From Anaerolinea sp. (GTDB lineage Bacteria; Chloroflexota; Anaerolineae; Anaerolineales; Anaerolineaceae): a stretch of 6,690 nucleotides of DNA. The stretch is taken from NCBI GenBank assembly GCA_013824385.1, contig PNNU01000196.1, positions 1 to 6,690 of the forward strand, in the 5' to 3' direction. The notes under the pieces were generated by a model that worked only from the letters and a program-made list of their open reading frames with translations, ran no database searches and had not been told where the DNA came from. Shown here piece by piece: positions 1,404 through 6,690 of this stretch (position 1 is its first letter; each line of letters opens with the position of its first letter). Position numbers and translations under genes: made by a program.

Positions 1404-2339
1404 CTACAATGAATCAACAGGGCTAGCTTTTTTATGAGCTAGCATAATGTCCTGATTTGTCTGTTTTAAATATCGTTTCATGATTTGCAAATCGGCGTGT
1501 CCCATAAGTTCTTGAACGGCATATACATCTGCTCCGGCGCGTAGACAAGTAAGAGCAAACCATCGTCTGAAGGCGTGAATTTCAGGGGGGTGAACGTTAG
1601 CAATTTTTGCTCTTCGCTTTACCATGGATTTTAAACCCCAATAAGTTAATGGTTCGCTATCTTTTGTAATCCAAAGATAGGGTGAGTTGTCTGTTCTAAA
1701 TCTCAAATAAGCTTTTACTAATTTTTTTGTCTTGGCTCCAATGTATACAACCCTTTGTTTTCTTCCTTTACCTAATCGAATAATCATTTCTCCAGTTGCT
1801 AAATTGATATATTCATGCGTAAGAGATAGTAACTCTTGTGCTCTGACTCCTGTATCTAGAAGAATAAAAAAAATTGCTTTGTCCCTTAATCCAATAAGCG
1901 AGTTGGTGGAACAAGTATCAATAATCGCTTGTACATCGTCAATGTTTGCCGGGTCTTTAATTTCAACTGGATTCATTGGCGATTTTACTTTTCTTATAGG
2001 GTTTTTCCAGTTTTCCGGTTCAACCTCATAATCCCACCAATTTAGAAAGGTTTTTAATGCTCTATAGCAAGCATGAATTCCACCTGCATTATGGTCGGTG
2101 GTTTCCAGATAAAAAAGAAATTGGCGTATCAAATTAGAATCAATTTGGAAAATTGAATCAATACTTTGTGAGTCACAGAATTTCGTAAACAACTCTAACT
2201 TTGTTTTGTAGAAATATAGTGTCCCTTTTGCCATGTTCTGAGCTTTTCTGTCAATCAGGAAATTGTTTATCCATGTTTTTAAATCTGATTCTTGGACGGA
2301 AATTAAAATAGACCATTGGTTCTCTGTGGTATTTCGCAT
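1404..2339 (-). CDS. Tyrosine recombinase / integrase (XerC/D type)
   Basis: This 311-residue site-specific recombinase cuts and rejoins DNA through a 3'-phosphotyrosine. An N-terminal SAM-like core-binding domain (about 15-105: KTWINNFLIDRKAQNMAKGT, later CYRALKTFLNWW) precedes the catalytic domain (about 130-305). All catalytic residues are visible: R166 (DTGVR), K191 (GKGRKQR), H255 and R258 (HAFRR), H281 (LMGH) and Y290 (KRYLK). The length matches ordinary Xer-like integrases. The start is the ATG at 2339-2337, with GAGGAG 6 nt upstream. The frame is open for 60 further codons up to 2519, but those would cross the tRNA promoter and gene. It is divergent from the tRNA gene, whose 3' end is repeated three times. 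It is therefore the obvious candidate enzyme for those sites; no excisionase is seen. The AT-rich composition agrees with horizontal transfer. Confidence 0.93.
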   Translation of the reverse strand: MRNTTENQWSILISVQESDLKTWINNFLIDRKAQNMAKGTLYFYKTKLELFTKFCDSQSIDSIFQIDSNLIRQFLFYLETTDHNAGGIHACYRALKTFLNWWDYEVEPENWKNPIRKVKSPMNPVEIKDPANIDDVQAIIDTCSTNSLIGLRDKAIFFILLDTGVRAQELLSLTHEYINLATGEMIIRLGKGRKQRVVYIGAKTKKLVKAYLRFRTDNSPYLWITKDSEPLTYWGLKSMVKRRAKIANVHPPEIHAFRRWFALTCLRAGADVYAVQELMGHADLQIMKRYLKQTNQDIMLAHKKASPVDSL

Positions 2340-2345
2340 GTTTTT

Positions 2346-2351
2346 CTCCTC
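2346..2351 (-). promoter_or_regulatory. Strong ribosome binding site deciding the integrase start
   Basis: The minus strand reads GAGGAG, six bases before the ATG at 2339-2337. It rejects the longer reading frame whose N-terminus would be encoded antisense to the tRNA gene. Confidence 0.8.
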
Positions 2352-2423
2352 GAAATTCCACTTTTTTATAGATTCTCCGTATTCTGGGAAGGCATGTCTT
2401 TCACTGCGAAAAAAGCGATTTCG

Positions 2424-2452
2424 TTGACAAAACAAGTGCCTTATAGTAATAT
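2424..2452 (+). promoter_or_regulatory. Near-consensus sigma-70 promoter of the tRNA gene
   Basis: TTGACA (2424-2429), a 17-nt spacer and TAATAT (2447-2452) predict a transcription start near 2459-2460, just before the tRNA 5' end at 2463. It lies back to back with the integrase gene, whose start is 85 nt away in the opposite direction. The recombinase and the tRNA/repeat transcript are therefore divergently expressed from one short region. Confidence 0.8.
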
Positions 2453-2462
2453 TTGACCCGTT

Positions 2463-2537
2463 GGCGAGGTAGCTCAACGGTGGAGCAGTGGACTCATAAG
2501 CCATTGGTTGTGGGTTCAAATCCCACCCTCGCCACCA
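2463..2537 (+). tRNA. tRNA with CAT anticodon (elongator Met, or Ile2), CCA encoded
   Basis: The cloverleaf is nearly complete. The 7-bp acceptor GGCGAGG/CCTCGCC pairs exactly. The D-stem is GCTC/GAGC with a short 7-nt loop containing GG, and the T-stem is GTGGG/CCCAC with loop TTCAAAT. The discriminator A and encoded CCA end at 2537. The anticodon CAT is at 2495-2497 in loop CTCATAA. The anticodon stem GTGGA/GCCAT has one G-U pair and one A-G mismatch next to the loop, which is unusual and may mark a degenerate or specialised copy. The G-C first pair argues against initiator tRNA. Whether it is Met or lysidine-modified Ile2 cannot be settled by eye. Its 3' end is repeated downstream (see tandem units), marking it as a recombinase attachment site. 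Confidence 0.9.
2521..2535 (+). repeat. att-like core, copy 1 (inside the tRNA)
   Basis: TCCCACCCTCGCCAC covers the 3' side of the T-stem, the acceptor strand, the discriminator base and the first C of CCA. The same 15 bp recur at 2596-2610 and 2690-2704. tRNA 3' ends are a well-known target of tyrosine recombinases, and the integrase is 180 bp away. Confidence 0.7.
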
Positions 2538-2595
2538 TTTTTATTTAATAGGCCAAGTTTATTTGGGTTTACCGGTGAAACTGGTACTTCGCAAA

Positions 2596-2610
2596 TCCCA
2601 CCCTCGCCAC
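2596..2610 (+). repeat. att-like core, copy 2
   Basis: An exact copy of the 15-bp tRNA end, 75 bp downstream of the first. The identity to the tRNA continues on both sides here (CAAA before, CATTTTTATT after), so the shared block between copies 1 and 2 is longer than the core. Confidence 0.7.
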
Positions 2611-2666
2611 CATTTTTATTTAATAGGCCAAGTTTATTTGGGTTTACCGGTGAAACTGATACTTCG

Positions 2667-2689
2667 CAAATACCCCTTCGGGGCACGCG
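2667..2689 (+). other. CCCCTTCGGGG hairpin segment breaking the third unit
   Basis: A third unit begins (CAAAT at 2667-2671). It is then interrupted by about 19 bp containing CCCC-TTC-GGGG and ACGCG before the core resumes at 2690. The short GC-rich hairpin is absent from units 1 and 2. It could be part of a dispersed repeat or a footprint of an imprecise event. Confidence 0.55.
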
Positions 2690-2704
2690 TCCCACCCTCG
2701 CCAC
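2690..2704 (+). repeat. att-like core, copy 3, probable original tRNA end
   Basis: An exact 15-bp match to the tRNA end, but followed by TCTTTTTTT where copies 1 and 2 have CA. It therefore lacks the full encoded CCA. It sits 14 bp before a strong intrinsic terminator, the place where the end of a native tRNA gene would be. This suggests it is the scar of the pre-insertion tRNA 3' end. Confidence 0.65.
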
Positions 2705-2718
2705 TCTTTTTTTCAAGG

Positions 2719-2751
2719 ACATCAGCAGGTTATATAAGCTGGTGTTTTTTT
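2719..2751 (+). terminator. Intrinsic terminator of the tRNA/repeat transcript
   Basis: ACATCAGC (2719-2726) pairs with GCTGGTGT (2738-2745), with one G-U pair and an 11-nt loop. A run of seven Ts (2745-2751) follows. It faces the plus strand, and the only plus-strand gene upstream is the tRNA. The transcript from the promoter at 2424-2452 would thus include both 75-bp units. Confidence 0.8.
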
Positions 2752-2976: not shown

Positions 2977-3837
2977 CTAGTGACTCGCGATCCAGTCCAG
3001 CACTTCCTGGCGGTCAATGCGATAGCCATAATCGGTGCCGCGGCAGATTGAATTCATGCCAAAGGAGGTCACAGCCACGATCAGGTTGGAGCTGGTGGGT
3101 CCTAGGAAGACAGGACCACCCGAGTCGCCCGAGCAGGTTCCTCCGCGGCCGTCGCCGTTGCCCTGCGTCTGAAGGTTATATCCATCAGTAGCTCTGCTGC
3201 CTATATTCACCAGAGTTGAATTCGCCATCAATCTGATTCTATAAGATATGTTGGGGAGGGCGTCTTTTGCATTGGTACTGTAAGTCAAACCATACCCGCT
3301 GACGGTGAAGATGGTGTCTTTGAGTCCGCGCGCTTTATCCAGATTATCAAGGATACCTACCGTTGGTAATTGACCGTATTCGGGCATGGAGATGGCTTTA
3401 TCCAGAATCACCAGGCCGACATCATGCGTGTTGGGGAAGCCAGCGAAATTGGCAAAGCCGTAGTTATAAATCTCATCTGACGTGGCGCAGAGTGGGTCGA
3501 GGGCGCCTCCGGCGCACTCAGTGGGATATCCGCTCACTGGATCATACTGAGTTACTGGGTCATAGTTGGCTCCCGCATCCTGCTGAAACCAAACCCGGGC
3601 GGTAACCGCACCTTCTGCGGTATCAGCGCAGTGGCCAGCGGTCAACAGCTTGGTGGGGCTGATCAAAGAACCCGTGCAGCGCCATATGAATTCTCCATCC
3701 GCGTCATAGAATGCCACCATTCCAACGTATGGATGTTCATCGTCATTTACCCAATTGCCGGTGATGGCAAGGACGGGCATGACGATCAGTGCTAATGCGA
3801 TTAAAACCATGGATAAAGCTCGACCAAATTTTTGCAT
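2977..3837 (-). CDS. Secreted trypsin-fold serine protease (S1 family)
   Basis: The protein has 286 residues. A signal peptide (about 1-24: two positive charges, then a long hydrophobic core, ending PVLA) exports it. The mature chain is a chymotrypsin-fold protease with the full triad: H69 (LTAGHC), D139 (NTHDVGL) and S239 (CSGDSGGP). C54 and C70 form the classic disulfide around the histidine; C235 and C265 are likely paired near the active site, and C108/C117 are a further possible pair. The residue six before the catalytic serine, which sets trypsin specificity, is Gly (G233) and not Asp. Cleavage after Lys/Arg is therefore unlikely, and an elastase- or chymotrypsin-like preference is more probable. 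The predicted mature N-terminus (ITGN) falls right at the signal cleavage site, so no separate propeptide is evident. The start ATG has AGGAGG 6 nt upstream. The gene has its own promoter and terminator. Confidence 0.93.
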   Translation of the reverse strand: MQKFGRALSMVLIALALIVMPVLAITGNWVNDDEHPYVGMVAFYDADGEFIWRCTGSLISPTKLLTAGHCADTAEGAVTARVWFQQDAGANYDPVTQYDPVSGYPTECAGGALDPLCATSDEIYNYGFANFAGFPNTHDVGLVILDKAISMPEYGQLPTVGILDNLDKARGLKDTIFTVSGYGLTYSTNAKDALPNISYRIRLMANSTLVNIGSRATDGYNLQTQGNGDGRGGTCSGDSGGPVFLGPTSSNLIVAVTSFGMNSICRGTDYGYRIDRQEVLDWIASH

Positions 3838-4651: not shown

Positions 4652-5821
4652 CTACGGTAACACTGTGCAATTCTGGGCATGGTCGCATTCGCCGAAATAT
4701 TCGACGCTTTCGATGTATCCCATGCACTCGAATTCTCCCCAGTCGTCGCACAGGTTGTTGCCAATCTCCACATTGGAGTAGGTGTTATCGCCCTGCGGCT
4801 CCACAAAGATGGTGCCGCGGTCCGAGGTTTCGAAAGCCACAAAAGCGTGACCAGTCTCTTGATTCACAAACTGCACAGTGATGATTTTAGCGCTGATGTT
4901 GGCATAGCGCGCGTTGGCGACCAAATCAATGGCGTAATCCATGCAGTTGTAGTCTTCGAGGTCGTATTCACGCCAGTTGGTATGATCATCCGCGAGAAAT
5001 TGGGTCAGCTGCTTCCATGTGATGGATTGGTATTCGGGGGTCGGCGTCAAATCCGGGCTGGCAGGAGTGAAGGGGTTGGCAGGGTCATACACATAGACCT
5101 TCAGATTATCAAAAGCCACTTCTACTTCGCTTGACTCAGAAGGTTGCGCACCCATACCGTAGTATCCCTGTTTGAGAGAAGAATCCTGAAAGCTGAATTC
5201 ATAATGGTCATTGAAAAAGATCTGATTAGTGTCGCCGTTTGCCGTAACGGTTACAAGATTGGTTTTACCGGTAATGTTCAACCAGGGTGAAAGGGTGGGA
5301 AGTTTGAGCATGCCGTATACACCCTGAAGAAAACGATGGATGGTGTAAGTGCCGTCATCCATGATGGTTAAAGCGTAAAAATTTTCTTCGTCTTCGTAAC
5401 GCCACAAGACCATTCCGCCTGTGGTTTCGTCGTCGCCAATCACGTGGCGCAGGTCCACGTTAAGGACGAAATCATCGAGGGGTTCAGCAGAAAGCATGAA
5501 GAAGTTGTAATCGTTTCGACTGGCTTGAACGAAGTACTCACCTTTGGAATAGTAGAGCCTGCTTTGGATGTCATCCTCTCCTTCCCAGCCGCTGTTGGGA
5601 TCTGAAAAATCATCCTCATAAAGGGTGGCATTATTAACCGGGTCGAGAGTGGCGGTGGGGGTGGGGATGGATGTGGCTGCAGGTTCAGAAGTGGAAACAG
5701 CAGTTGGTGTCGCGGTTGTCATTAAAACAGTAACGGATTCCAACGTGGATCTGGCCAGATCAAGCGGTGCACAAGCCAGGGTGAACAGTAAAATGACAAG
5801 GATGACTGCGATTCGTTTCAT
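4652..5821 (-). CDS. Lipoprotein: jelly-roll domain plus Cys/His transglutaminase-like domain
   Basis: The protein has 389 residues. An N-terminal signal with a lipobox-like LLFTLAC (Cys17) predicts export and lipid anchoring; Thr at -3 is not the usual residue. A Thr/Ser/Pro linker (about 35-62) follows. Residues 68-245 (YEDDFSDPNSGW ... VAFDNLKVY) have the pattern of a concanavalin-like sugar- or surface-binding jelly roll. The C-terminal part (about 264-350) has a cysteine at a helix start (YNCMDYAIDL, C293), a histidine (TGHAFVAFET, H325) and an acidic or Gln region (FVEPQGD, 340-345). This is the order of transglutaminase- or papain-like enzymes, so a peptidase or transamidase role is plausible but unproven. 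Four Cys (358, 366, 379, 385) crowd the end. The start ATG at 5821 has GGGAGG just upstream; an ATG at 5863 would lie in the promoter. A 3' fragment of a paralogue lies at 2872-2922. Confidence 0.85.
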   Translation of the reverse strand: MKRIAVILVILLFTLACAPLDLARSTLESVTVLMTTATPTAVSTSEPAATSIPTPTATLDPVNNATLYEDDFSDPNSGWEGEDDIQSRLYYSKGEYFVQASRNDYNFFMLSAEPLDDFVLNVDLRHVIGDDETTGGMVLWRYEDEENFYALTIMDDGTYTIHRFLQGVYGMLKLPTLSPWLNITGKTNLVTVTANGDTNQIFFNDHYEFSFQDSSLKQGYYGMGAQPSESSEVEVAFDNLKVYVYDPANPFTPASPDLTPTPEYQSITWKQLTQFLADDHTNWREYDLEDYNCMDYAIDLVANARYANISAKIITVQFVNQETGHAFVAFETSDRGTIFVEPQGDNTYSNVEIGNNLCDDWGEFECMGYIESVEYFGECDHAQNCTVLP

Positions 5822-5824
5822 ATT

Positions 5825-5830
5825 CCTCCC
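5825..5830 (-). promoter_or_regulatory. Ribosome binding site deciding the lipoprotein start
   Basis: The minus strand reads GGGAGG, three bases before the ATG at 5821-5819. The spacing is short but the match is strong. The residues after it form the signal sequence MKRIAVILVILL, whereas the longer frame would put 14 residues before the signal. Confidence 0.75.
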
Positions 5831-5843
5831 AAACACTCCATTC

Positions 5844-5871
5844 ATTTTAGCGATTTGAGCCATCCTGTCAA
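5844..5871 (-). promoter_or_regulatory. Promoter of the lipoprotein gene
   Basis: The minus strand reads TTGACA (5871-5866), a 16-nt spacer, then TAAAAT (5849-5844). The predicted start near 5837 leaves a leader of about 16 nt. It shows that the lipoprotein is transcribed on its own and not only from the glycosyltransferase gene 83 bp upstream. Confidence 0.8.
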
Positions 5872-5903: not shown

Positions 5904-6690
5904 TTATTTGCTGCAATTATTATCGACAAGAATTGTTCCATTCGCACTTGAATAGACTGTGTCGAGTTGGTTTTGCAGAGAAGCAATATCCGCGAGGGTC
6001 ACAGAGTCAGCCAGTTTTTCAAATTGCTGAACCTTATCCGGATGAAACATCACCAGTACAGCGCACTCCTTATGAATCATGTCATCCAATGAGGTTTGAC
6101 CGTCAATGGATAAGCTGGACCCTGCGGCATCCGCATGGGTAGTGAGGGGATACGCGCTGCGGTTGAGATAAAACAACACGATATCCGGTGCGTTGGTGAT
6201 CAGTGCACGCCCCTGCGGCAGGGTGACTTCCGTGGTGAGGATCGGATTTTCCTTCCAAACCGGGGATGTATATCCGTTGGGGTAATTGCCTACCACAACG
6301 GGATAGGCTTTAAAGGAGGGGGTGTTAAAGGCCACAAAGAACAGGGCAATGATCACACCTAAAATAGGAAAAGTGATTCTGGGATGGATTCTACGCGTGA
6401 GGACCAGCGCGCAGCTCAGCAGCCAGCCATAAATGATGGCGATGAGGGGAGAAAGCATGCGGTCATCGATCGAAATAGTCTCAGTAGAAACAGAATAAAT
6501 AATCAGCAGCACGGCCACATAGAGTACGACCACAAAAGCCAGTCCAATTGAAAGGATTTCAATGCTTCCGCGTTCAGCGACTTTTGATTGTTTGATGGAA
6601 AGGTAAAGCCCAACCAGAATTATGATTGCAAAAATGATTAACAGAATGGGCCGAAAAACCTCAGCCCGTACACCGGGGATCATGTTGGTG
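5904..6690 (-). CDS. C-terminal part of a GT-C (family 39-like) membrane glycosyltransferase, partial
   Basis: The frame is open to the right edge; the first ATG inside it (6683) has no ribosome binding site in view and falls mid-protein for this family, so the true start is outside the window. About 260 residues are seen. Four transmembrane helices lie at about residues 10-28, 42-65, 74-96 and 102-119, counting from the ATG at 6683. Next is an extracytoplasmic domain (NYPNGYTSPVWKENPILTTE ... RALITNAPDIVLFYLNRSAYPL). The DDRMLSPL motif before the third helix and the 'GY.S..W..nP ... NAPD..' tail are typical of dolichol- or lipid-phosphosugar-dependent transferases of the PMT/ArnT kind in Chloroflexota. 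The catalytic N-terminal loop is not in the window, so the donor and acceptor cannot be inferred. No terminator is evident after the stop. Confidence 0.75.
   Translation of the reverse strand, partial: TNMIPGVRAEVFRPILLIIFAIIILVGLYLSIKQSKVAERGSIEILSIGLAFVVVLYVAVLLIIYSVSTETISIDDRMLSPLIAIIYGWLLSCALVLTRRIHPRITFPILGVIIALFFVAFNTPSFKAYPVVVGNYPNGYTSPVWKENPILTTEVTLPQGRALITNAPDIVLFYLNRSAYPLTTHADAAGSSLSIDGQTSLDDMIHKECAVLVMFHPDKVQQFEKLADSVTLADIASLQNQLDTVYSSANGTILVDNNCSK

Follow-up and report, generated by a model that had tools for sequence, protein, structure and literature searches.

Behind the tRNA-Met(CAT) gene in a 6,690-nt stretch of Anaerolinea sp. DNA (the window) lies a short array of repeats that, on balance, we read as a row of cassette-like recombination-site units anchored in the tRNA T-loop. 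The observations underlying this reading are the structure of the sites, their occurrence behind several tRNAs, their variable number at one locus, the genes bracketed by them, and tRNA-end copies that match the tRNA of the genome carrying them. We class the array as a variant form of tRNA-anchored island, and there is a fair chance that it is a new cassette system. The tyrosine recombinase encoded next to the array is probably not its builder.

The tRNA-Met locus in the window and in related genomes

The original prediction had described a complete tyrosine recombinase diverging from a tRNA with a TTGACA-17-TAATAT promoter, two 75-bp units with one difference, a third core copy, and an intrinsic terminator, and we recovered each of these elements (Table 1). 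The 14-mer TCCCACCCTCGCCA occurred exactly three times in the window (at 2521, 2596, and 2690) and gave 5 matches at up to three mismatches against 0.31 expected. The repeat begins within the tRNA T-loop (CAAAT...) and not merely at the tRNA 3′ end, the unit boundary lying between ...GGTT and CAAATCCCACCCTCGCCA, and within every unit in the window an insert in the T-loop folds into a hairpin. ARAGORN called one tRNA in the window, ruling out the units as tRNA genes. Promoter-like matches of this type were no more common in the window than in shuffled sequence (5 vs 5.4); the one ahead of the tRNA is conserved in L346. The L345 contig begins within it and retains the −10 part. The terminator-like hairpin ahead of a T-run had a folding energy of −13.1 kcal/mol (z −3.25, folded over 2700-2752) and was not among the calls of a consensus terminator scan of the window.

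Table 1. Coordinates of the features in the 6,690-nt window
Feature	Position	Strand	Basis or remark
tRNA-Met(CAT), putative anchor of the array	2463..2537	+	ARAGORN; Rfam 69.7 bits
Unit 1, starting in the tRNA T-loop: tRNA end and T-rich spacer, followed by a degenerate copy of the tRNA 3′ half and hairpin insert 2570-2591	2517..2591	+	
Unit 2, 74/75 identical to unit 1; hairpin insert 2645-2666, one pair broken	2592..2666	+	
Third site: CAAAT, second-kind hairpin insert 2672-2690, then CCCACCCTCGCCAC; common to L344 and L345	2667..2704	+	
Promoter-like TTGACA-17-TAATAT upstream of the tRNA	2424..2452	+	Kept in L346
Terminator-like hairpin, old tRNA 3′ flank; similar one in L344	2717..2750	+	
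Tyrosine recombinase, 311 aa, of a tRNA-associated Xer-like family of Anaerolineae; array neighbor	1404..2339	-	
Half-site within the first codons of the recombinase gene, matching tRNA-Met 34-47 (anticodon arm) at 12/14 nt	2308..2321	+	
Right border (approximate) of the segment with the recombinase, where homology to recombinase-less relatives starts	2407..2416	.	
Trypsin-like gene, host synteny marker	2977..3837	-	
Secreted-protein-like ORF, host synteny marker	4652..5863	-	
Membrane-protein-like ORF, host synteny marker	5904..6689	-	

Two further features were seen around the array. In the window and in L344, the final site ahead of the host flank had a second kind of insert, ACCCC...GGGG...ACACGT-like after CAAAT; in L345, this insert was at the first extra site. 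Positions 2885-2920 and 4665-4700 are two copies of a 36-nt repeat (94% identity); the former, between the array and the trypsin-like gene, is a relic copy of the end of the 4652-5863 gene and suggests that a second copy of this gene was lost.

To compare the locus among relatives, we used 147 genomes of one family, mostly drafts, reached through an Anaerolineaceae record (L001). The 4652-5863 protein had matches in seven of them, three of which (L343, L345, and L346) had, within the stretch compared, the order tRNA-Met, trypsin-like gene (80-87% identical), 4652-5863 homologue, and 5904 homologue. Extra tRNA-end copies behind this tRNA numbered 0 in L346, 1 in L343, and about 3 in L345, the window having 2 and the third core. 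Rather than the same two copies fixed in all relatives, which the original prediction had regarded as a sign of slippage, both the numbers and the units differed behind the same tRNA. As for the other sign it had named, a lineage with the repeat but without the recombinase, L343 carries a unit and has no recombinase in the 1.2 kb upstream of the tRNA. No pair of genomes differing by exactly one clean insertion was found among those compared.

A tblastn search for the recombinase gave no match upstream of the tRNA in L343 (1.2 kb) or L346 (5.9 kb), both of which have a small gene and a radC-like reading frame, recognized by eye, at this place; Pfam RadC was found at L459, L463, L466, and L467. 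The L345 contig ends 34 bp 5′ of the tRNA. When the window is aligned with L343 and L346, homology sets in at 2407 and 2416, 47-56 bp upstream of the tRNA. Since homology to these recombinase-less relatives starts before the tRNA, the tRNA and its promoter are host sequence. For the same reason, the recombinase beside the tRNA lies, as judged from these alignments, in a segment of its own, across the tRNA from the array, and this segment was inserted or exchanged on the tRNA 5′ side.

Structure and distribution of the sites and the genes between them

A DNA search with the tRNA and the array returned 30 tRNA-Met loci, four of them known beforehand; counting the window, the last 13 nt of the tRNA were repeated within 900 nt at 13 of 31 loci. 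Units start with the tRNA end and a T-rich spacer (often near TTTTTATTTAA); the tRNA 3′ half is then copied as far as GGGTT and is followed by an insert, after which CAAATCCC... recurs. A strict site, defined as part of the tRNA 3′ half, an insert, and the tRNA end with at most 4 and 6 mismatches, was found behind 11 of 61 tRNA-Met loci and in 0 of 1,220 mononucleotide shuffles. The window, L360, L361, L372, and L377 fall outside this definition because their 5′ part is more degenerate, although the tRNA-end copy is present. The spacing of sites with no recognized gene between them ranged from 55 to about 160 bp and was 75 bp in the window, and nearly the whole tRNA was copied ahead of the hairpin in L364 and at one site of L457.

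Sites were found behind four kinds of tRNA, namely tRNA-Met, -Cys, -Pro, and -Arg. We found arrays behind tRNA-Pro(CGG) in three genomes (four copies in G693, two each in G695 and G731), sites behind tRNA-Cys in four (G552, G615, G713, and G759), and a site behind tRNA-Arg(CCT) in G713. A scan of 199 tRNA occurrences in an earlier set of the loci, many of them redundant, gave downstream copies behind tRNA-Met and tRNA-Cys only. A sequence-only site model matched 29 of the 147 family genomes at E ≤ 0.01, the weakest matches being uncertain, and a site pattern written after viewing the sites matched 41 of 147 vs 5 for a backward control, many apparently by chance within genes; the tRNA-Pro arrays came to light through this pattern. 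A pattern of two CCTCGCCA matched 131 of 396 genomes, with only L008 being of the right kind, by eye, among the matches listed. The exact unit body was not found in viral contigs.

The inserts are 11-38 nt long and lie at a fixed point of the T-loop (TT^CAAAT), and their sequences differ between genomes. Their summed folding energy was −79.7 kcal/mol vs −39.3 after shuffling for a first set (n = 15) and −80.4 vs −37.2 for a second set (n = 13), none of 2,000 shuffles being as low in either set. Singly, 7/15 and 5/13 inserts, 12 of 28 in total, beat their own shuffles at 5%; the 11-nt insert of L378 had no fold. Six of the 13 second-set inserts (from G695, G731, G522, G594, G755, and G005) came from or fit the site pattern and thus share its RCC...GG bias. 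A pair count on seven aligned rows gave a covariation score that was reached by 47 of 500 shuffles. Folding as a set with little sequence conservation would also be expected if the array were a structural RNA downstream of the tRNA, its hairpin being kept for the RNA rather than as a DNA site. However, whole units folded no better than controls (z −1.3 to +1.5), the copy number per locus among relatives ranged from 0 to at least 5, and sites lay up to kilobases from the tRNA, so we consider a structural RNA highly improbable.

The tRNA-end copies resemble the tRNA of the genome in which they lie. Over 18 nt, 32 of 44 copies were identical to it, and in all 41 comparable copies (Met, Cys, and Pro) it was closer than any other natural variant; this comparison omitted G601, G001, the mis-registered copies of G749, the second tRNA-Met of G755, and sites whose own tRNA is off the stretch. 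The agreement fits an exchange with, or a duplication from, the local tRNA end. Over 19 strict sites counted by hand, mismatches averaged 1.1/18 in the 3′ part and 3.6/17 in the 5′ part, means that are shaped by the mismatch limits of the strict definition. We propose the T-loop as the exchange point because the 3′ parts track the local tRNA, whereas most units have more degenerate 5′ parts. Some older copies, in L358, L364, and L374, speak against a simple exchange there, as they showed the reverse pattern, with the 5′ part better kept than the 3′ end.

Some sites enclose genes. At four loci (L456, L457, L459, and L502), genes were bracketed by sites or by a tRNA and a site. L456 has five copies, then the AbiE toxin-antitoxin genes AbiEi (PADLOC E 9e-57) and AbiEii (PF08843 E 1e-19), and then another site, and in L457, four sites lie around a P-type ATPase and a 182-aa ORF nameless in Pfam and PADLOC. 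L459 has a 174-aa ORF, with an 8xMP family match below the cut-off, between tRNA-Met and a site, and L502 has a 344-aa ORF with no Pfam name between a second tRNA-Met and a site whose 3′ part repeats that second tRNA-Met. None of the six bracketed ORFs had an integrase domain by Pfam; five of them were also run through PADLOC, the scan taking ORFs above 110-120 codons. A site in L463 adjoins a protein with a weak SIR2-type PADLOC match (7.5e-5) and no Pfam family, and one in L462 adjoins a DNA methylase that ends in an Mrr-like part, with no far site found at either locus. Directly behind a tRNA-Met site of genome G786, we also observed an IS200-like Y1 transposase gene (L467 2024-2731; PF01797, E 7e-6). 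Transposases of the Y1 type are linked to hairpin repeats.

Near-identical neighboring units occur in the window (75 bp, two), L359 (about 68 bp, four), L499 (86 bp, three), and L505 (74 bp, four) and are best explained by recent tandem duplication within one array. Duplication had been named in the original prediction as the main alternative to insertion; it explains why the two units in the window are almost identical, but not why four kinds of tRNA share hairpin sites. A broader explanation along these lines is that islands once integrated at the tRNA displaced its 3′ half and later lost most of their DNA, that a hairpin formed in the now dead T-loop, and that the remnant was multiplied by slippage or by unequal crossing-over of the 18-bp tRNA ends. 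The near-identical neighbors fit such a history, as does the single unit of the same kind kept in L008, and displaced tRNA fragments are standard at islands according to the consulted part of PMC4383910. On the other hand, it would have to account for hairpin inserts at the same T-loop point of four tRNA kinds, with the fold kept as a set and the sequence not, and for gene-bracketing sites lacking a recognized integrase gene. We regard this history as a real possibility, while holding that it probably did not produce the array.

The neighboring recombinase and its family

The recombinase belongs to the tyrosine recombinases (PF00589, E 5e-29), with R166, H255, R258, and Y290 invariant in a 42-row alignment, and its best named relatives are in Anaerolineae; the closest recombinase was P0002 (85%). 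The original prediction had called for a search for homologues beside tRNA genes. At 35 of 59 family loci, a complete tRNA ended 49-142 bp upstream of the recombinase start; the window does not reach the far border of its own recombinase segment. In eight of these 35, the tRNA pointed away from the recombinase as it does in the window. By eye, the tRNA next to the gene was cut in or beside the anticodon loop in L007, L026, L055, L034, L145, and L158, and in L043 BLAST showed the first 40 nt of tRNA-Arg to recur, displaced, at a distance of 1.6 kb. Among plasmid records, 39 matched, the best 20 of 39 only around the tRNA stretch, and of 247 phage records with a match to the recombinase, none reached 60% identity.

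Codons 6-12 of the recombinase gene resemble the anticodon arm of the adjoining tRNA. Over 38 distinct loci, left from 52 after collapsing near-identical ones (L031 having been dropped before the 52), the score was 8.5 with the own tRNA vs 6.1 with other isotypes, and none of 20,000 permutations reached the own-tRNA sum, gene relatedness remaining in this test. The match was up to 15 nt exact (L152), occurred with tRNA-Met, Leu, Thr, Asn, and others, and was absent singly in about a third of the loci; it was seen in the window, L012, L027, L152, L154, and others. This half-site is possibly an attP, an autoregulatory site, or a retargeting site.

Several features of the family were observed apart from the array. 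Two family recombinases lie on one strand behind one tRNA-Met, 6 kb apart in G357 (C1, 840351 and 846330) and 14 kb apart in G006 (C19, 132738 and 146569); the second recombinase of such pairs (L138 and L161) had no tRNA within 260 bp. In many members (L011, L012, L024, and others), the gene leader has, by eye, a ribosome-binding site in an inverted-repeat loop before the start codon.

The original prediction held that the recombinase inserts or excises units behind the tRNA in cis, in an integron-like manner. The layout of the window is in line with this, and L008 has the same divergent recombinase plus one unit of the same kind. An upstream motif found at 16 of 52 family recombinase genes, written after viewing these sequences and with at least nine of the 16 near-identical, also occurs right behind two tRNA-end sites in L457; this hints that some gene-bearing units may descend from such recombinase elements. 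However, L343 and L346 have no such gene beside the tRNA, and L343 still carries a unit. A family match at E ≤ 1e-30 was found in 5 of 25 genomes (drafts): 24 of the 25 have units or sites, and 19 of these 24 had no match at this threshold, including G522, the genome of L457. Furthermore, the family splits tRNAs near the anticodon and not at the T-loop. As arrays vary at loci and in genomes without the recombinase, the array does not depend on it, and we rejected an anticodon-arm recombinase as the main reading of the array. We judge it improbable that the neighboring enzyme builds the array in cis.

A possible cassette system and its relation to known elements

The reading that we favor, a row of recombination-site units anchored in the tRNA T-loop, would work as follows. 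A site comprises a copy of the tRNA 3′ half (the T-arm and the preceding part), a T-loop hairpin at TT^CAAAT, and the tRNA 3′ end, and the T-loop would serve as the exchange point. An insertion into the T-loop would supply the tRNA with a new, equivalent 3′ end, the old one being displaced to a position downstream of a hairpin. Units could be either empty, as those of the window would be, or gene-enclosing, and they may be moved in trans by a site-specific recombinase, possibly a housekeeping Xer. In 10 array genomes searched, we found 2 to 7 tyrosine recombinases each, and one Xer-like group was shared by 8 of the 10 (from 30 of 38 places, with a wrong frame for at least two). This sharing makes a housekeeping enzyme possible as the mover and nothing more; the group singles out no mover among these genomes.

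Like integrons, the array places units, both empty and gene-bearing, behind an anchor site. Integron cassette sites are hairpins conserved in fold more than in sequence, and the inserts here likewise keep the fold as sets and not the sequence. Unlike in integrons, the anchor is a tRNA T-loop, and there is no IntI in cis, the recombinase of the window scoring 53.6 bits with TIGR02249 (integron integrase) against a cut-off of 265. Seven other recombinases of array genomes were all below the cut-off as well. The attC R-box consensus is RYYYAAC/GTTRRRY, and no such pair was present in 2463-2760 (shuffled mean 0.03). An integron proper was thus rejected.

The array also resembles p-dif modules of Acinetobacter plasmids, in which genes lie between short sites and the recombinase is encoded outside the module, but those modules, as far as the accounts consulted go, have XerC/D dif-like sites and are mainly plasmid-borne. 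To our knowledge, they involve no tRNA and no hairpin insert. The array shares with genomic islands at tRNA genes a displaced tRNA fragment in the form of the tRNA end at the far border, whereas an integrase of their own was not seen by Pfam among the bracketed ORFs. In the additive flexible islands of Methylophilaceae, the last 20 nt of tRNA-Lys are repeated and the islands range from 330 bp to 42 kb, according to the consulted part of PMC10872708; as here, the tRNA end is present in varying number with growth at one tRNA, but that part mentions no hairpin insert, and the units described here go down to 55 bp with a T-loop hairpin. Tycheposons, in the same part of PMC10872708, have a recombinase and a tRNA at the border, as the recombinase segment of the window may also have, but they are elements of 4-200 kb with no tRNA-end array described there. 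We found no such tRNA-end array in the open-licence literature, judged by titles and the starts of abstracts.

More tentatively, and with doubt outweighing confidence, these sites may belong to a cassette system of Anaerolineae in which tRNA T-loops would be the anchors, hairpin-bearing tRNA mimics the cassette sites, and the recombinase would act in trans, with neither IntI nor attC; such a system would collect defense and other genes behind several tRNAs and renew the tRNA end whenever a unit is inserted. Should the units be mobile, essential tRNA genes would be the sockets of a cassette platform built from parts unrelated to those of integrons in a little-studied phylum, with cargo that includes toxin-antitoxin and other genes. 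Even if duplication is the only process at work, a hairpin insert at a fixed point in tRNA-end copies of four tRNA kinds needs explaining. Since the copy number differs among relatives, the idea can be tested directly by sequencing. The half-site in the recombinase gene that matches the adjoining tRNA poses a second, separate puzzle, namely how such enzymes change their targets.
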